Shown: piece after piece, positions 8,349 to 58,565 of the stretch
How positions within the stretch are numbered: position 1 is the stretch's first letter
Layout: each line of letters starts with the position of its first letter
Assembly (NCBI RefSeq): GCF_014196635.1
Contig: NZ_JACIEB010000004.1
Coordinates: 1 to 64,000, forward strand
Reading direction: 5' to 3'
Length of the DNA: 64,000 bases
Source: Sphingobium fontiphilum
GTDB lineage: Bacteria > Pseudomonadota > Alphaproteobacteria > Sphingomonadales > Sphingomonadaceae
Notes under the pieces: model-generated
Told to the model about the DNA's origin: nothing
What the model saw: only the letters and a program-made list of their open reading frames with translations
Databases searched by the model: none
Position numbers and translations under genes: made by a program

Positions 8349-9581
8349 GTGACAGACCGCATCCGCTTCGATCCCTACGATCCTGCCGTTCACGCACGCG
8401 GGCCTGACGCCTTTGCCGCGATGGCCAGCCGCTGCCCGGTGTACCACTACAACGGACGCTTCGATTTCTTTGTCGCCAGCGATCCGGCCGACGTGCGCGA
8501 GGGTATCCTCAGGGATCCGGCCACCTGGACCATCGAGGAGGGCAGTTCGCCCAAGCTGTTGCCGCCCGAACAGCGCACCGCGCTGATGGACGACACCGCC
8601 TATCACAACAAGGTGCGCTTCGTGATGCAGCGCGGCTTTTCCCCACGCGAACTGGCACGGCTGCACGAAACGGTGCAGCGGCTTGCCGATGAACTGATCG
8701 ACGCGATGCTGGCCGACCCGCAAGGCCGGGGCGATCTGTTTGAACGGTTTGTCATGCCGCTGCCCGCCCGCCTGATGTGCGTGATGCTTGGCGTGCCCGA
8801 AGCCGATCACATGCTCTACAAGGAATGGGCCGATGCCTATTTTTACGACATCCTGAACGATGCCGGAACCGGTATGTCGGTGGATAGCCTCGCGCAGGTA
8901 TCGACGCCGGTCTTTGCGGAACTGGCGCGCCGCCGTGCGCTGCTCGCTGACAGAGGGCTGGAACCGGACCTTGCGCTGTTGGGCGCGGAACTGCCCCACG
9001 ATTTCCTGTCGCGCTTCATGTGCGACAGGATCGATGGCCGGTATCTGCGCGATGACGAGATTCTCAGCGTCATGCTGGGCATCATCGTGGGCGGCAACGA
9101 AACCACGATGAACCTGATTGGCAACCTGCTGAGCCGCTTGCTGGGTGATCGCGCGCTGTGGGAACAGGTCCGCGCCGACCGCAAACTGGTGGACGCAGCG
9201 ATCGAGGAAAGCCTGCGCATCGACCCGCCGGTGATCGGGCTTTTCCGGGCGGCGCGCCATGATACGACGCTCGGCGGGGTTGCCGTTCCGGCCCACGCCA
9301 AGGTGTTCTACAATATCGCTGCGGCCAACCGTGATCCGGCCATCTTCACCGAACCCGATACCTTCCGGCTTGACCGGCCGCGCGCGCAGATGCGCCATCA
9401 CGTCGCTTTCGCGGGCGGCAACCACTCCTGCATCGGGGAACCGCTGGTGCGGATGGAGGTCCGCGCGGTGCTCAACCGGCTGCTCGACCGCATGCCCGAC
9501 CTCGATCTCGATGGCGAACCGCGCCGCGCGGCGGGTTTCAACGTCTGTGGATGGAACTACCTGCCGATGCGCTGGCGCTGA
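8349..9581 (+). CDS. Cytochrome P450
   Basis: A 410-residue soluble bacterial P450. The heme-binding loop is 'FAGGNHSCIG' with the cysteine ligand and the Phe seven residues before it. The I-helix oxygen-activation motif is GGNETT, and the K-helix ExxR is seen in 'EESLR'. It starts at GTG (8349), 72 bases after the aldehyde dehydrogenase, and an SDR follows. It needs a ferredoxin partner, for which the only candidate in the window is at 39079-39396. It is only distantly similar to the two CYP101-like P450s at 26224 and 54177. Substrate unknown. Confidence 0.92.
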   Translation: MTDRIRFDPYDPAVHARGPDAFAAMASRCPVYHYNGRFDFFVASDPADVREGILRDPATWTIEEGSSPKLLPPEQRTALMDDTAYHNKVRFVMQRGFSPRELARLHETVQRLADELIDAMLADPQGRGDLFERFVMPLPARLMCVMLGVPEADHMLYKEWADAYFYDILNDAGTGMSVDSLAQVSTPVFAELARRRALLADRGLEPDLALLGAELPHDFLSRFMCDRIDGRYLRDDEILSVMLGIIVGGNETTMNLIGNLLSRLLGDRALWEQVRADRKLVDAAIEESLRIDPPVIGLFRAARHDTTLGGVAVPAHAKVFYNIAAANRDPAIFTEPDTFRLDRPRAQMRHHVAFAGGNHSCIGEPLVRMEVRAVLNRLLDRMPDLDLDGEPRRAAGFNVCGWNYLPMRWR

Positions 9582-32576: not shown

Positions 32577-32635
32577 AAGGCCCGTCGCGCACGCATGCCG
32601 CCCATTGTCCGAGGCAATTGCAAGAGGAAAGTCTG

Positions 32636-33814
32636 ATGGCCAGTTCTACCGCTTCCGTATCCATCGACCGGGCCGATCCGCAGGCGCTGCTCGACGCCGC
32701 GCGCGCGCTGGTGCCGCAGGTGATCGCCACGCGCGATGAAGCCAGCCGGCGAGCCGATGTGCTGCCTGAAACGATTGCGGCGATGCAGGCCGCCGGGCTG
32801 CTGCGGGCGTTCCAGCCGGCGCGGTGGGGCGGGATGGAGCTTGATCCCCGCCATGTCTTTGCGTTGCAGAACGTCTTTGCCGAACATTGCCTGTCCACCG
32901 CCTGGGTGTTCGGGGTGCTTTCGGTGCAGTCGTTCATGCTGGGCCGGATGGACCCGTTGGCGCAGGCCGACGTTTGGGGGGACAATCCCGACACGCTGGT
33001 ATCGTCATCGTTCGCGCCGGTCGGCAAGGTGACGCCGGTCGATGGCGGTTACCGGATCAGCGGGCGCTTCACCTTTTCCAGCGGCAGCAGCCACGCCGGA
33101 TGGGCCGTTGTCGGCGGGATGGTGCCGCCCGACGAAGCCCGCCCCGCGCCGCAGATGCGCCTGTTCCTCGTCCCTGCGAGCGATTATCGCATCGACCGGG
33201 TGTGGGATACGTTCGGCCTGCGCGCCACCGGCAGCAACGATGTGGTGATCGACGATGCCTTCGTCCCGGCCTACCGCACCTATGCGCCCGACGCCGGGCT
33301 GCTGCCGCTTCCGGCCACGTCGGGGCTGACCGAACTTTACCGCCTGCCGTGGCTCTATGTGTTTGCCTCGTCGATCTCCAGCCTGGCGATCGGCGCGGCG
33401 CGCGGCGCACTGGCGGCCTTTACCGCGTCCACGCGCGAGCGGCAAGGCGCGTTCGGATCGGGCGCATCGCGCGACAATCCGCGCTTCCTGTCGGTGATCG
33501 GGCGTGCAAAGGTCGAAATCGACATGGTGGAGCGCCAGTTCCACGACAATTACGACCGGCTGGCCACAGCGATTTCACGCGACGAAACGCTGCCTATGGA
33601 CGAAGCCCTGCTCTACCGCGCGCAATTGACCGGCTTCATGCGCCGCCTTGTCCCGCTGGTCGATGAAATGATGCTCCTGCTGGGCGGGCGCGGGATTCAG
33701 CGCGACGGGCCGCTGACTCAGCTGTGGCTGGACATGAACGCGGCGCGCGCCCACGCGGGCAACGATCCCGCCGCCGTGCACGCGCAGATGGCGGGCGAAA
33801 TGCTGAACGCCTGA
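32636..33814 (+). CDS. HsaA-like flavin-dependent monooxygenase (acyl-CoA dehydrogenase fold)
   Basis: A 392-residue protein of the acyl-CoA-dehydrogenase superfamily, group D hydroxylase type. It opens 'ETIAAMQAAGLLRAFQPARW GGMEL'-like, with 'GRFTFSSGSSHAGWAVVGG' in the beta domain and 'LLGGRGIQRDGPL' near the end. This pattern fits HsaA/HpaB-type hydroxylases, which use reduced flavin and O2 to hydroxylate phenols, better than true acyl-CoA dehydrogenases, whose catalytic Glu is not evident. A separate flavin reductase would be needed; none is seen. The start follows AAGAGGAAAG. It may supply a catechol to the extradiol-type enzyme at 51863. Confidence 0.82.
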   Translation: MASSTASVSIDRADPQALLDAARALVPQVIATRDEASRRADVLPETIAAMQAAGLLRAFQPARWGGMELDPRHVFALQNVFAEHCLSTAWVFGVLSVQSFMLGRMDPLAQADVWGDNPDTLVSSSFAPVGKVTPVDGGYRISGRFTFSSGSSHAGWAVVGGMVPPDEARPAPQMRLFLVPASDYRIDRVWDTFGLRATGSNDVVIDDAFVPAYRTYAPDAGLLPLPATSGLTELYRLPWLYVFASSISSLAIGAARGALAAFTASTRERQGAFGSGASRDNPRFLSVIGRAKVEIDMVERQFHDNYDRLATAISRDETLPMDEALLYRAQLTGFMRRLVPLVDEMMLLLGGRGIQRDGPLTQLWLDMNAARAHAGNDPAAVHAQMAGEMLNA

Positions 33815-33935: not shown

Positions 33936-34092
33936 ATGACCGTTGCTATTGCCGCCCTGGCCGACCGGCTTGCCATTGGCGGTTATCAGGACAGGCTGCG
34001 GCGGACGCCTGCCCGATTGGCCCTGAGGCGCCTGCTGCCCGGAACAGCGTCGGCGTCCGGCGGCGGGGGGTGTTCTACTTGCCCAGCAGGTT
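33936..34092 (+). pseudogene. Possible N-terminal remnant of an NTF2/SnoaL-fold gene
   Basis: A short frame beginning MTVAIAALADRLAIGGYQ resembles the first helix of SnoaL-like proteins ('xIEALADRLAIxDLLxRY'), but it loses all similarity after about 22 codons and stops at about 34092 inside the end of the neighbouring hydrolase gene. A CGGATAGG motif lies about 90 bases upstream (33842-33849), as for functional genes here. The rest of 33815-34074 shows nothing else. Confidence 0.3.
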
Positions 34093-34836
34093 GAAGATTC
34101 CCATGCCTTCCAGCATCAGGCCATAGCCCAGATCGTCGAGCATGTGCCGCTTGATCCGCTGGACCATCGAAACCCGCGAATAGCGCAGCATGAGATCAGG
34201 CTTCTGCGCCAGATCGCGCGCTACTTCCCATGCGCGAGCAAGCACTTGGTCCTGCGGAACCACTTCGGCGACGAAGCCGAGCGTGAGAGCTTCTTCGGCC
34301 GCAATCTCGTTGCCGGTCAGCAGGAAGTGGCGGGCGCGATTGGGGCCGAGCAGCATCTGCCACCAGACATGGACGCCATCGCCCGGAACGACGCCGCCGG
34401 GGGCATGGGCCTTGTCGGCAAAGCTGGCGGTATTGGCGGCGATGACGATATCGGACAAGGTGGCCAGTTCCGCGTGGACGAAGGCGGGGCCGTTGACGGC
34501 GGCAATGATCGGGATGTCGATTTCAAGCAGGTTGTTCAGCAGGTCGCGCCCCTCCTTGAAGATGCGGTACCAGGTGCCGGTGTTCATCATCGCAGCGCCG
34601 GTGAACGCCACCTTGGCCAGAAACTCCGTACCGGTCCCGGTCAGGATCACGATGCGGTTGCCGCGATCATGGCCGACACGGTAAAAGGCATCGCCAAGTT
34701 GTTCGTGCAGGCAGCCGGGGTCGGCTTCCCACACCGCTTCGGCGCCGTCGGTGTGAATTTGCATCTGCAAGATGCCGTCGTGCCGTTCAAAGCGGATGTT
34801 GCGATAAACGTCTTGGTAGCTGGCCAGATCGTACAT
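34075..34836 (-). CDS. 6-oxocamphor hydrolase-like beta-diketone hydrolase (crotonase fold)
   Basis: A 253-residue crotonase-superfamily protein much closer to Rhodococcus 6-oxocamphor hydrolase (OCH) than to enoyl-CoA hydratases. OCH cleaves bicyclic 1,3-diketones by retro-Claisen C-C hydrolysis without CoA. The OCH catalytic residues as I recall them (His122, His145, Asp154, Glu244) all have counterparts one position earlier: His121 in 'NGPAFVH', His144 in 'KAHAPGG', Asp153 in 'VVPGDGVH' and Glu243 near the C-terminus. 'LLNNLLEIDIPIIAAVNGP' also matches. It stands alone between a remnant and a terminator. With CYP101-like P450s and many dehydrogenases nearby, a role in ring opening of a bicyclic terpenoid is plausible; the substrate is inferred. 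Confidence 0.85.
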   Translation of the reverse strand: MYDLASYQDVYRNIRFERHDGILQMQIHTDGAEAVWEADPGCLHEQLGDAFYRVGHDRGNRIVILTGTGTEFLAKVAFTGAAMMNTGTWYRIFKEGRDLLNNLLEIDIPIIAAVNGPAFVHAELATLSDIVIAANTASFADKAHAPGGVVPGDGVHVWWQMLLGPNRARHFLLTGNEIAAEEALTLGFVAEVVPQDQVLARAWEVARDLAQKPDLMLRYSRVSMVQRIKRHMLDDLGYGLMLEGMGIFNLLGK

Positions 34837-34890
34837 GCGGCGTCTCCGATGGTTGCAACGGGTGCCTCACGGGGTGCGGAAGCACGCCTG

Positions 34891-34917
34891 CCTTATGACA
34901 GGTATCCGGTCGGATAC
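34891..34917. promoter_or_regulatory. Operator-like dyad followed by GTATCCG-GT-CGGATAC inverted repeat
   Basis: CCTTATGACAGG (34891-34902) fits the CCTR-N4-YAGG dyad with one change and directly adjoins a 7-bp-arm inverted repeat at 34902-34917. Both lie 55-80 bases upstream of the OCH-like gene (start 34836, minus). Confidence 0.45.
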
Positions 34918-34955
34918 TTCCCCATGGCGAATGTCCGGCTGGGCACACACGCAAG

Positions 34956-34990
34956 AAGGGCGCCGCCGGAAACCGGTCGGCGCCCTTTTC
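34956..34990. terminator. Strong bidirectional-looking intrinsic terminator
   Basis: GGGCGCCG (34958-34965) pairs with CGGCGCCC (34978-34985), with an additional CCGG pairing inside. TTTT follows on the plus strand and AAGAA precedes. It probably ends transcription of the minus-strand small periplasmic protein gene that stops at 35038, insulating the OCH-like gene. Confidence 0.75.
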
Positions 34991-35037
34991 TGATGCGCTG
35001 ACAGAACCGCTACAGCGGGGCTGGCCGTGCTATCCGC

Positions 35038-35431: not shown

Positions 35432-35558
35432 AAAATAACTTGATGCCCGGTCGACAAGGCCGCAGTGGGGTGCTTGTGCATCGGCACGAGAATGTTCAAT
35501 CTGCGTCCCGGCGTCGGAAAAGGCGCAAAGGATGGGACGGGGATCGAAAGGGGCGCCC

Positions 35559-36224
35559 ATGATCGCAAATGACGAACCCGCTTCCGGCAGCACGATCGCC
35601 GACGGTGCGGTCGCCACGCAGGTTCATCCCGTAAAGCGGTCGGTCGGCCGTCCCCGCCGGTTGACGCTGGACGCTATCGTCGACGCCGCCTGCACGGTGG
35701 GGATCGAAGCCCTCGAAATGCACACCGTGGCGCAGACGCTGAACACCGGCGTCGCAACGCTCTATGGCTATGTTCGCGGGCGCGATCACCTGCTCGAACT
35801 CGTGGCGGAACGCATGGCGTCGCGGGCGCTGGCGGACAATTACGGCGGCACCTGGCAGGAAGTGCTGCGCGGGCATGCCGCGCTGTGTTTTGCGATGTTC
35901 AATTCCCGCCCGGAAATGATCGGCAACCTGATCGGCGGGGAAAAGACCGATCGCGAATTGGCCTATGCCGCCAATATCCTTGCCATGCTGGAAAAGCGGG
36001 GCCTGACGCGCACGCAGGCGCTGGATATCTATGTCGAAACCAACCAGGCGGTCATCGGCGCGGCGGTGCTGCTGGTGCGGCGCAAGATCCTTGCCAATGC
36101 CGGGGTTGATGAACACGGCAAGGTCATTCCGCTCCCGCCGGGGCTGGGCGACTACCGGCCCACAATCGACCGAATCGTGCGCGATTTCGAAGCGATTCTG
36201 GATGACGACCTGAAACGCTCCTAA
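35559..36224 (+). CDS. TetR family transcriptional regulator
   Basis: A 221-residue repressor. An Arg/Pro-rich lead (VGRPRRLTLDAIVDAACTVG) precedes a helix-turn-helix at about residues 30-75, with 'MHTVAQTLNTGVATLYGYV' in the recognition region. A variable helical ligand-binding domain follows. The ATG at 35559 follows GAAAGG; an earlier start at 35532 lacks a ribosome site. It converges on the PQQ dehydrogenase. Its nearest likely target is the inverted repeat at 35409-35431; wider control of the cluster is possible. Confidence 0.87.
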   Translation: MIANDEPASGSTIADGAVATQVHPVKRSVGRPRRLTLDAIVDAACTVGIEALEMHTVAQTLNTGVATLYGYVRGRDHLLELVAERMASRALADNYGGTWQEVLRGHAALCFAMFNSRPEMIGNLIGGEKTDRELAYAANILAMLEKRGLTRTQALDIYVETNQAVIGAAVLLVRRKILANAGVDEHGKVIPLPPGLGDYRPTIDRIVRDFEAILDDDLKRS

Positions 36225-36263: not shown

Positions 36264-38489
36264 TCACTGCTCCGGCGCAGGGTTCAGCGCGAAGACATAT
36301 ATCGCATTGCCGTTTGCGGGCTGGTAGATGTTGCCGATCTGGCCGGTCACCACCGACCACGCGCCCAGCGGCCCCGCGGGCACGGCGATGTATTGCGTGC
36401 CCCCCGCCGCATAGCTGATCGGAAAGCCGTGCGCCGGCGCGCCGAGGCGCGCCTGCCACAAGACCTTGCCGTTTGCGCTGTCGAGCGCGCGAACATAGCG
36501 GTCGGCATCACCGACAAAGACCAGCCCGCCCGCCGTGGTCAGCGCCGCCGCGGTGAACGGGACGCGCTGCTGGTAATCCCACATCTGCTTCAGGGTGCGC
36601 ACGTCGTAGGCGGCCAGTTTGCCGAAATTGCCTTTGCTGCCGGGCATTTCGATCTTGCCGCCCGGTTCGATGGCGTTGGCGCCGCCAAGCCCGCCGCCAC
36701 CGATCCTGAACTCCACGTCCGTGCCCTTCATCCCGCCGCACATCTGCAGCAACGGGACGATCAGCGTACCGCGCCGCGAATCATAGGCGCTGGCGGGCCA
36801 ATCGTGCCCACCGAAGGTGGTGGGGCAGGTGCGCACCACATCGCCGACTTCGGCCTTGAGGATGTCGGGCCGGTAGGTCAGCCGCCCGGTCTTGCGGTCG
36901 ATCGCCGCCCAGACGTCCTGATAGACGGTTTCGGCCACGTCAATGTAGGCGCCGTTCCTGCGGTCCAGCTTCCACAGCAGCCCGTCCTTGCCCACCGTCA
37001 GCAGCACCGGCCGTCCGCCGATGTCGACAAGCACGCGTTCGAACACGTTATCGAGATCGAGCGGATCGCCCGGCATATGCTGGAAATGCCACTTGATCCG
37101 CCCCGTGCGCGGATCGAGCGCGAGCGTGGAATTGGTATAGAGCGCCGCATCGCGCGGCGACATGTGGCGGCTGGCCGCGACCCATGGCTTGGCCTGTGCG
37201 GTGCCGATGTAGAAGGTATCGAGCGCCGCGTCGTAGCTGCCGGGAATCCAGCCGTCCCCGCCCGCGCGAAACTCCGGCGCAAGGCCGGCCCAGGTATCGC
37301 CCCCCGGCTGCCCCGGCTGGGCCACCGTTGCCGTGCGCCACAGTTCCTTGCCGGTGGCCGGATCATACCCGGCGACAAAGCACGGCGTCTTCTTGAAGCG
37401 GTCGCACCCGTTGATCCCGCCGACCAGCACGCCGCCCGCGATGATCGGCGAGGCGGTCTGCGTGAACCCTTCGGCCGGATCGGCACGCTGCGTGCGCCAC
37501 AGTTCCTCGCCGCTGCGCGCGTCGATGGCGACCAGCGCCGCATCCTGCGTAGCGATGAACAGGCTGGTGCCCAGGATCGCCATGTTGCGCACCGGGCCAA
37601 GCGCCACCGGCTTGCCATCGCGCGATTCATAGCGGTACTTCCAAATGAAATCGCCCGTCGCCGCATCGAGCGCATGGACCTGTCCGCCGGGCGCAAGCAC
37701 GAACATCACGCCATCATGGACGATCGGGGTCGGCTCGCTTGTCCCGTCCGGCAGGGCCATGACCCAGGCCAGGCGCAGCCTGCCGACATTGCCGGTGTCG
37801 ATCTGGGTCAGCGGGCTTTCGCCATGGCCATCGCGGGTGCGCCGCCAGCTCAGCCAATCGCCCGGCGGTGGGCTGGTGAGCATCGCTTCGGTAACGGGGG
37901 TGAAGGATTGGACCCGGCGGTTGCGCGGGGCGAAGCTCGCCATGAGCTGGGCAAAGGCGCGGTTTTCGGGAGTATCGGCATTGGCCCCCGCGCCGATCAC
38001 CGGGGTCTGTTCGCCAGCGGCAGAGGAGATTGCGGGCGGGCTGCCGTCTGCGGCAATGGCAATCGGCGCGCCTCCCGCCAGCGGACGGGAACCCGCGCCA
38101 TGGCCGTTATGGGCAAGGACGTGCGCGGTCACCGCCACCGCTTCCCGGTCGGTCAGCAGACCGGGGGAGCCGGGCGGCATCATCGCCTTGATATAGGCCG
38201 CCAGATCATCACTGCTGCGGAGGCGCCAGGTGGCAAGGAACGCCGGGCCGGTCAGCGCCGGGCCGTGCGAAGACCCGCGCAAGCTGGTATCGTGACAGGC
38301 CGCGCAGTGCGTGGCGAAAACCGCCTGCCCGCTTTCGGCCTGGGCCGCGGTGAACGATCCGGTGGCCATGCCCGCGGCAGAGACGTCTTGCGCAGTGATC
38401 GCCGATCCCGCGCCCGAAGCAAGCAGGCCTGCTGCCAGTGCCGCGCTGCCCATTGCAGCCAGGCTGCGCCTTGCGTTAACCACCGGCAT
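36264..38489 (-). CDS. Heme c-PQQ quinohemoprotein alcohol dehydrogenase (N-terminal heme)
   Basis: A 741-residue exported enzyme with a signal peptide (residues ~1-32) and a cytochrome c domain with CAACH at 62-66. An eight-bladed PQQ propeller of about 550 residues follows, with repeated W-motifs such as '[11 protein letters not shown]' and '[12 protein letters not shown]'. The heme-first order matches polyvinyl-alcohol dehydrogenase and related proteins rather than the usual quinohemoprotein alcohol dehydrogenases, which carry heme at the C-terminus. It oxidises alcohols in the periplasm and passes electrons to the respiratory chain. The ATG at 38489 follows GGGGGAAC. It is divergent from the VOC gene at 38596. 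Confidence 0.9.
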
Positions 38490-38595
38490 CTGTTCCCCCG
38501 TCTTGCGTTTGGGCAATCACTGCCGCGCCTTGCGCGCATGCGGGCCTGTCGCAAGAGGGGATACGCCCGCCAGCGGTCGGACAAGAGGGGACGCC

Positions 38596-39078: not shown

Positions 39079-39396
39079 TCAGTCTTCCGGGGCGATCGTC
39101 ACCCGCATGCCGTCCAGCGCGCTGGTGAAGTTGATCTGGCACGAAAGCCGCGAACTGGCGTTGCGGTGGTCCGAACTGTCGAGCAGGTCGTTTTCGTCGG
39201 CGCTGATTTCGGGCAACTGGCTGGCAAACTTTTCGTCCACGTAAATGTGGCATGTGGCGCACGAACAGCAGCCGCCGCACAGCGCCAGCAGTTCGTCAAC
39301 GCCGGCATCGCGGATGATTTCCATGACCGAAACATTGGTATCGGCGTCGATGCTCTGTTCGGAACCGTCGCGCTTGGTGACAATGAGCGTGGGCAT
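39079..39396 (-). CDS. [2Fe-2S] ferredoxin, adrenodoxin/putidaredoxin type
   Basis: A 105-residue electron carrier. The cluster ligands fit the Cys-X5-Cys-X2-Cys-X36-Cys pattern with Cys40, Cys46, Cys49 and Cys86; Cys43 and Cys44 are extra. 'ATCHIYVDE' and 'RLSCQI' are typical of P450-partner ferredoxins. It probably reduces one or more of the four P450s in the window, above all the two CYP101-like ones. No ferredoxin reductase gene is in the window, so that partner must be elsewhere. A full CCTGCCGATAGG dyad lies upstream (39484-39495). Confidence 0.93.
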
Positions 39397-44808: not shown

Positions 44809-45283
44809 TCAGCCGCAGCCAACCACGCCGCCATCGCGCGGGATCTGCGCCAGCAGGGCGGGGTCGACGCTGTCCTCATCGCGCATGTGCGTGGTCATCC
44901 TCGTGGGGAAGAAGCAGGGAATCGCCGCGTTCACGGTCATGTTGGGTTCGGCAAGATCGCCCGCCAGATCGCGCGTCATCATGCGCACGGCAGCCTTGGA
45001 GGCGGCATAGCTGTATGCCCTGAGCCGTTTGATCTTCACGCCTGCCGCGGACCCGATGTTGATGACCCGCGCCGGATCATCGGGGGCGCCGGTCGCCGCC
45101 AGTTCAGGCAGCCGTTCGCGCACCGGGATAAACGGCGTCTGCACGTTCACCGCCGCGAGGCCCGGCCACGCCTTGTCGGGGAAGGCATTGATTTCGCCGC
45201 CCCAGCGCCTGCGCGCCGCCGGAAACCAGCGCGGTCTTGCCCGTCAGGTCGAACAGGCTTGCGGCAAACGATTCCGCCACCAT
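44809..45283 (-). pseudogene. Internally deleted and truncated SDR
   Basis: An SDR beginning (LFDLTGKTALVSGG, then 'AQALGRR') is followed in another frame by the second half of the same kind of enzyme: 'ARVINIGSAAGVKIKRLRA', 'YSYAASKAAVRMM' and 'NMTVNAAIPCFFPTRMT'. About 70 codons in the middle, including the NNAG region, are missing near 45190-45200, and the end stops before the usual VDGG motif. The ATG at 45283 overlaps the stop of the upstream reductase gene, so the two were once translationally coupled. It resembles the intact SDR at 49866. Confidence 0.8.
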
Positions 45284-57200: not shown

Positions 57201-58490
57201 TCACACGTCCCACAGCACCGGCACCGCATCGGGGCCGCGCATGTTCAACCCGCGGATCTGCGGGTGCGGGAAGGCCGGGTCGAAGCGCAGGTTCGGCAGA
57301 TCGAGCATCGCGTCGAGCGCCACCTCCATTTCCGCCAGCGCCATGTGCATGCCTATGCACATGTGCGGCCCGAAGCCGAAGCTGAGCAGCGGTCGCATCG
57401 GGCGCTTGAGCCACAGGCGGTCCGGGTCTTCATAGACTTCGGGATCGCGGTTGGCCGAGGCGATGGACAGCAGCACCGCCGTCCCCTTGGCCACGGCATT
57501 GCCGCCGATTTCCATGTCCTTGGCCGCGACCCTGGCCACCGCGCCCGCAGTGGGATCACGGCGCATGGTTTCGATCACCGCCTTGGGCACCAGCGTGCGG
57601 TCGGCACGCACTTCTTCCAGCACGTCGGGGTTTTCGAGAAGCTGCACCATCATGTTGGCGATGCTGCGGGTGGTCGTTTCCCCCGCGGCTAGCAGCAGCA
57701 TGCGGATGAAGGCGGCGATCTGTTCGTCGCTGAAGGTGCGGCCATCGTCGTTGACCTGCATCATGTGGCCAAGGATATCGGCGCGCATGTCGCCACGCTG
57801 GCGATAGGCCTGCACGATCGGCAGGACGGTGTCGTACATGGCCTGGCCCGCGACCATCGACTGCGGAATGGTGATCGCTGCAACGGCCGGATCGGTCTGC
57901 GGCGCGGCCACCACCTGGATCGCCCAGCTTGCCAGGTTCTGCAGCAGATCCTTGTCGTGCGGGAAGCCGAAGTACTGGTACATCGCCCGGATCGGGAAGG
58001 GCAGGGCAAGATCGCGCAGCAGGTCGGCCTTGCCGCGCGGACGCAGTTCTTCGATGAACTCCTGCATCAGCACCGGCTTGATCAGCGTGTCGATCAGCTT
58101 GCGGATTTCAGAGCGGATGAAGGGCCGCTGCAGCAGCGCGCGGATGTGGTCGTGCTCCTCGCCGTCCATCGCGGTCAGCAGCATGTTGTCCACCGCCGCG
58201 CCAAAGCCATCGCCGACGATGTAGGACTGCCAGTTTTCCGGGTCCATCAGGACCGCGTGGATATCCTTGTAGCGCAGCAGCGTAATCGTAGGCCGGCCGG
58301 TCATCATGTAATCGGCCATGCTGGGGATGCTGTGCTGCTTCAGCAGATCGCCGTGCATGACCGGGCAGCGCGCGCGCTGTTCCTCAAACATCGGATAGGG
58401 ATTGGCCGGGGCATTGCCGGAATAGCCGTTGGTCACCAGCGTATAGTCGGAAACCATGCGATCAAGCGGATCGACGGTGATCTGGTCCAT
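57201..58490 (-). CDS. Cytochrome P450
   Basis: A 429-residue P450 of the common soluble bacterial type. The I-helix is 'LLAAGETTTRS', the K-helix is 'ETMRR', and the heme loop 'FGFGPHMCIGMHMALAEM' is complete with Phe and Cys. It is unlike the CYP101-type enzymes, which have GGLDTV. The ATG at 58490 is 10 bases from AGGAG; a GTG at 58502 overlaps that site and is less likely. CCTATCGGTTGA lies 75 bases upstream. It stands alone between decayed genes. Substrate unknown. Confidence 0.92.
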   Translation of the reverse strand: MDQITVDPLDRMVSDYTLVTNGYSGNAPANPYPMFEEQRARCPVMHGDLLKQHSIPSMADYMMTGRPTITLLRYKDIHAVLMDPENWQSYIVGDGFGAAVDNMLLTAMDGEEHDHIRALLQRPFIRSEIRKLIDTLIKPVLMQEFIEELRPRGKADLLRDLALPFPIRAMYQYFGFPHDKDLLQNLASWAIQVVAAPQTDPAVAAITIPQSMVAGQAMYDTVLPIVQAYRQRGDMRADILGHMMQVNDDGRTFSDEQIAAFIRMLLLAAGETTTRSIANMMVQLLENPDVLEEVRADRTLVPKAVIETMRRDPTAGAVARVAAKDMEIGGNAVAKGTAVLLSIASANRDPEVYEDPDRLWLKRPMRPLLSFGFGPHMCIGMHMALAEMEVALDAMLDLPNLRFDPAFPHPQIRGLNMRGPDAVPVLWDV

Positions 58491-58565
58491 TGTAGTCGCC
58501 ACTCCTCAGGGCTCGCCGCAGGGCGATTAACGGTCGGCATGTGCGGTTTGCCCGCCGAGCTTGCA

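Follow-up and report, generated by a model that had tools for sequence, protein, structure and literature searches.

The window, a 64,000-nucleotide stretch of a Sphingobium fontiphilum contig, carries on its minus strand an open reading frame that runs from an ATG at position 34836 to position 34075 and whose predicted product resembles the 6-oxocamphor hydrolase (OCH) of Rhodococcus (Table 1). A GGAG ribosome-binding-like motif lies just 5' of the start codon, and farther upstream, beyond a terminator-like inverted repeat, is a short ORF whose start resembles a signal peptide. A terminator-like site was located at 34964-34982 on the plus strand, the count of such sites being no higher than in shuffled sequences, and no sigma-70 consensus site was found in the intergenic stretch. 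With a Shine-Dalgarno-like motif of its own, a terminator-like repeat upstream and a convergent neighbor, the OCH-like gene looks monocistronic and outside any P450 or SDR operon. The nearest P450 gene is 6.6 kb away; none of the seven other crotonase matches of the genome is within 10 kb of a P450 gene.

Table 1. Features around the OCH-like gene, with positions in the window
Feature	Coordinates	Strand	Basis or remark
CYP101-like P450, best match CYP101D1, GGLDTV I-helix	26224..27429	minus	not operonic with the OCH-like gene
Acyl-CoA dehydrogenase-fold protein, convergent neighbor of the OCH-like gene	32630..33814	plus	real start near 32630
OCH/ABDH-type beta-diketone hydrolase (predicted), 253 aa	34075..34836	minus	ORF, phmmer, model, tree, residue table
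Intergenic stretch 5' of the OCH-like gene, with inverted repeat GGGCGCCG...CGGCGCCC followed by likely promoter region and GGAG motif	34837..35037	minus	sequence reading
TetR-like regulator by sequence appearance (no Pfam match), points away from the OCH-like gene	35532..36224	plus	
PQQ-dependent dehydrogenase with cytochrome c domain	36264..38516	minus	Pfam PF01011 and cytochrome c
Putidaredoxin-type [2Fe-2S] ferredoxin	39079..39396	minus	best match 3lxf, E 1e-40
P450cam-like P450, GGLDTV I-helix	54090..55391	plus	

An earlier, sequence-only reading of this DNA had listed two P450cam-like enzymes, a putidaredoxin-type ferredoxin and seven intact SDRs in the window, and all of these were recovered. 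The ferredoxin, whose best match 3lxf we take to be Arx of Novosphingobium aromaticivorans, is 65-68% identical to the ferredoxin that accompanies OCH-like genes in Sphingobium and Rhizorhabdus and possibly serves as electron donor to the P450s, while the PQQ-dependent dehydrogenase could possibly carry out an alcohol-to-ketone step. Two Rieske oxygenases, an acyl-CoA synthetase and an FAH-family protein are also encoded in the window. Beyond the two CYP101-like enzymes, the four P450s of the window include two of non-CYP101 type (8349-9581, plus strand; 57201-58502, minus strand) that the earlier reading did not mention. An eighth SDR locus (44809-45150, minus strand) encodes only a C-terminal fragment of 113 aa that matches the last half of PF00106 alone and is likely a decayed gene.

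In a phmmer search of solved structures, the protein encoded by the OCH-like gene (hereafter the window protein) matched OCH best (1o8u; E 5.8e-67, 228.8 bits, about 45-47% identity) and the Anabaena enzyme ABDH second (2j5g; E 1.4e-65), and the CoA-type crotonases followed from E 1.6e-26. Among the NCBIfam matches listed, hydratase models included, none reached its cut-off on the window protein, which fits the labeling of OCH/ABDH clade members in public records as generic enoyl-CoA hydratase/isomerase. The structure prediction and superposition on OCH that the earlier reading had proposed gave a concordant picture: a model predicted from the family alignment (mean pLDDT 95.7, pTM 0.93) superposed on OCH with bound campholinic acid (1szo) with a Z score of 39.2 and 1.2 Å over 248 residues, on ABDH with a Z score of 37.6 and on CoA-type crotonases with Z scores of 31.8 or less, and the top ranks in Foldseek and VIA were all OCH/ABDH entries, with a clear gap to the others. 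Phylogenetic analysis placed the window protein within a clade of 96 rows that bear His at position 121 (window protein numbering), include OCH and ABDH, and stand apart from the CoA-type crotonases (support 100/99, stem length 1.03); paralogues of 28-33% identity fall outside it. Both the search values and the tree thus uphold the assignment to OCH-like enzymes rather than to enoyl-CoA hydratases.

The sequence-only reading had also aligned a catalytic tetrad, His121, His144, Asp153 and Glu243, with OCH residues each one position further along, and our alignment to OCH (H122, H145, D154, E244) confirms this; in addition, H44 and W36 pair with OCH H45 and W40. In OCH, His45, His122, His145, Asp154 and Glu244 are reportedly catalytic, and Trp40 is said to contact the product carbonyl. 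Among 58 aligned clade members H44, H121, E123, H144 and D153 are invariant and E243 is nearly so, W36 being the exception. Anabaena ABDH (alr4455; 2j5g/2j5s), for which D153, H144, E243 and H43 have been listed as catalytic (PMC3584854), shares the clade and the catalytic residues of the window protein but has Phe at the Trp36 position. Three of the four tetrad residues are not in themselves hallmarks of OCH, however, since H144, D153 and often E243 also occur in EchA15-type proteins and in several 28-33% paralogues whose residue 121 is Gly or Ala (PMC3584854; paralogue rows L047_17285, L047_19133 and L076_8584), so that, by these alignments, His121 is the diagnostic residue and the other three are not. 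The EchA15-type mycobacterial crotonases (3q1t, 3qk8, 7m3w), one of which, 3q1t, has been proposed as a beta-diketone hydrolase by SALSA (PMC3584854), combine H144/D153/E243-type residues with the lack of a His at 121, at 28-30% identity to the window protein and a Z score of about 31.

Aligning the window protein with other crotonases encoded in its genome showed that Glu123 and His144 occupy the positions of the first and second catalytic glutamates of enoyl-CoA hydratases (rat Glu144 and Glu164), so that the first of the pair is kept and the second replaced, and that His121 sits at the oxyanion-hole glycine position of the hydratases, a pattern identical to that of OCH. The replacement of the second glutamate by His144 and of the oxyanion-hole glycine by His121 makes ordinary hydratase chemistry unlikely for the window protein. 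The invariant Glu123 is a point against the hydrolase reading, though OCH has it too.

Rhodococcus OCH (1o8u/1szo) resembles the window protein in fold, in all catalytic residues and in Trp40, but the two differ in loop 73-84 (FLAKVAFTGAAMMNTGTW in the window protein versus FCNEIDFTSFNLGTPHDW in OCH) and by a three-residue insertion before H44 (window protein numbering). In the loop, which adjoins the oxyanion hole, K75 and A77 stand in place of OCH Glu76 and Asp78, and A81 in place of OCH Phe82, substitutions that likewise count against the hydrolase reading. Because the region of residues 71-90, the least confident part of the model apart from the C-terminus, differs in this way, the substrate of the window protein likely differs from that of OCH. 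Ala at position 77 also occurs in Binatota members and hence is not unique to the window protein; as the active site of these members is otherwise complete, we rejected the idea that the loss of the conserved Asp is disabling. Tandem pairs of OCH-clade genes in two Porticoccaceae/Pseudomonadales MAGs (L025 and L036) each comprise one member with and one without Asp at this position. In two genomes of the same genus, OCH-clade members (L020:1369-2235 and L021:1369-2235) may be altered in activity, as Gln replaces the catalytic Glu243 and the Trp36 position is occupied by Tyr.

Despite this resemblance, the window protein is, judged by the sequence phylogeny, neither an orthologue nor a sister of OCH. 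A topology uniting the two as one clade was rejected (AU p 5e-60): OCH groups with proteins of Rhodococcus sp. 008 and Aeromicrobium, and the window protein pairs with a protein of a Sphingomonadales MAG (L022, 61% identity) in a sphingomonad-rich subclade (support 96/92). A spread scan with one genome per species yielded 151 relatives, the best 80 of which come from Sphingomonadales, Gammaproteobacteria, Binatota, Chloroflexota, Cyanobacteria, Actinomycetota and others, and the OCH/ABDH clade as a whole spans at least six phyla, a spread over which only two members with solved structures turned up. Among the related genomes searched, 12 of 128 good ones, all in the genus of the window, carry an OCH-like gene, none with more than 53% identity, and this sparse occurrence marks it as an accessory gene. 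The window gene is thus a further member of a widespread beta-diketone hydrolase family that goes under a generic label. A literature search found no reports of activity among clade members other than OCH and ABDH.

Taken together, sequence, tree, fold and catalytic residues argue that the window gene, whose product falls in the OCH/ABDH clade within the crotonase superfamily, probably encodes a CoA-independent retro-Claisen beta-diketone hydrolase. If the enzyme works as OCH does, the His144-Asp153 dyad, together with Glu243 and His44, would activate a water molecule for attack on one of the carbonyls of a cyclic 1,3-diketone, and retro-Claisen C-C cleavage, during which Trp36 and His121 would stabilize the other carbonyl or the enolate, would release a ring-opened keto acid. 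The diketone itself would be made by P450 or other oxidation and subsequent alcohol dehydrogenation. Should this activity hold, many annotations would have to be corrected, and the clade would offer new enzymes for desymmetrizing cyclic diketones.

In the cell, the enzyme probably acts on a cyclic beta-diketone. The two solved clade members are both named beta-diketone hydrolases, and their crystals hold the cleavage products of bicyclic diketones (campholinic acid in OCH and the 3-oxocyclohexyl acetate product in ABDH). That the enzyme instead hydrolyzes acyclic or monocyclic beta-diketones, such as might derive from plant waxes, polyketides or xenobiotics, in a role unrelated to the nearby P450 genes, is possible but in our view doubtful: the OCH-like gene looks like a single transcription unit, family members from Cyanobacteria, Chloroflexota and Binatota mostly lack a P450 neighborhood, and others adjoin molybdenum oxidoreductase genes, but these crystal ligands, and the frequent location of the window protein's own subclade beside P450s, speak against it.

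The sequence-only reading had favored a sphingomonad route for camphor or other bicyclic terpenoids, in which a P450cam-like P450, the ferredoxin and an SDR would make the diketone and the OCH-like enzyme would open the ring by hydrolyzing a C-C bond rather than by Baeyer-Villiger oxidation. Within 25 kb of the gene there are indeed SDRs, CYP101-like P450s and a ferredoxin of the putidaredoxin type; the Rhodococcus sp. 008 protein that is sister to OCH is encoded near a P450, a ferredoxin and an SDR; and the absence of a Baeyer-Villiger monooxygenase, noted earlier for the window, extends to the whole genome, in which no FMO/BVMO-type (PF00743) protein was matched at E 0.001 (there are 18 P450 matches, some being pieces of one gene). 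Against this stand the lack of orthology between the window protein and OCH, the location of the gene outside any operon with P450, ferredoxin or SDR genes, and the lack of such neighbors on the contig of its closest relative, L022. Moreover, Trp occupies the Tyr96/Tyr98 position of CYP101A1 and CYP101D1 in both CYP101-like enzymes encoded in the window. This tyrosine binds the camphor carbonyl, CYP101B1 and CYP101C1, which lack it, prefer ionones, and the substrates of the CYP101 family span ionone, flavonoid and others (PMC9655578). With this substitution, the main argument from sequence in favor of camphor falls away, although another substrate is not thereby proven. We therefore consider the terpenoid route unlikely, as is 6-oxocamphor itself as the substrate of the window enzyme; what stands of the original proposal is an OCH-type retro-Claisen enzyme and, more generally, the notion that C-C hydrolysis follows oxidation by P450s, which is plausible given the close relatives that sit in P450/GMC/SDR clusters.

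Least probable, in our view, is action on a CoA thioester, whether to hydrolyze the ring of a beta-oxo cyclic acyl-CoA or in an ordinary hydratase/isomerase reaction, as in most crotonases, since PF00378 membership, the acyl-CoA dehydrogenase and acyl-CoA synthetase genes nearby and the retained Glu123 (aligned with hydratase Glu144) are outweighed by a sequence, fold and tree position far closer to two CoA-independent enzymes and by the histidines in place of the second hydratase glutamate and the oxyanion-hole glycine.

The gene neighborhoods of relatives bear on the retro-Claisen hydrolase assignment in a broader way. A compact cluster of a P450 (P450a), a GMC oxidoreductase, an OCH-like protein and an EstA/beta-lactamase-type serine hydrolase, with a ferredoxin, an SDR and a second P450, recurs in Rhizorhabdus (L053, 5179-10735), four Sphingobium (L072, L073, L081, L085), two Pseudomonas (L047, L052), a Caulobacterales MAG (L077, in whose cluster no ferredoxin was found), and plasmid pl1 of Paraburkholderia sprentiae (L113:7117-11975); it thus spans alpha-, beta- and gammaproteobacteria, and some copies add MaoC and a CoA-ester lyase. 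In a further member of the genus (L119), GMC, P450a and OCH-like genes lie in a row. Elsewhere in the clade, molybdenum oxidoreductases adjoin the gene in Novosphingobium pentaromativorans and Pseudonocardia, and in many cyanobacteria an SDR follows it, the ABDH orthologues often having one directly downstream rather than P450s. What these settings share is an oxidation step that might yield a diketone; this speaks for the enzyme class, not for one substrate.

In the sphingomonad clusters, the OCH-like genes belong to the subclade of the window gene, and the broad gene types P450, ferredoxin and SDR are common to both settings, but the window itself does not hold the cluster, a possibility we rejected because GMC and EstA matches are absent and the likeness of its P450s to those of the clusters is only about 32-34%. 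More tentatively, OCH-type hydrolases might catalyze ring opening in a widespread and as yet undescribed oxidative pathway common to sphingomonads, Pseudomonas and Paraburkholderia, in which P450 hydroxylation and GMC, SDR or PQQ dehydrogenation would yield a cyclic beta-diketone that is opened by C-C hydrolysis, not Baeyer-Villiger oxidation, and of which the window would be a dispersed version. A literature search, mostly without subscription papers, found no paper on the window gene or on the P450-GMC-OCH-EstA cluster, which is new here and apparently undescribed. We regard the cluster as a wider and more interesting lead than the window gene and as a concrete, testable candidate for a ring-opening pathway free of Baeyer-Villiger chemistry. 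On another contig of the same genome (L108:3520-15469; G000 contig C5, about 189-201 kb), at a locus without an OCH-like gene, a P450_57-like gene, an SDR, a CYP101-like P450 and a GMC oxidoreductase lie close together; this CYP101-like P450 is 50% identical to the window P450 at 26224, and the GMC oxidoreductase is 46% identical to that of the clusters.
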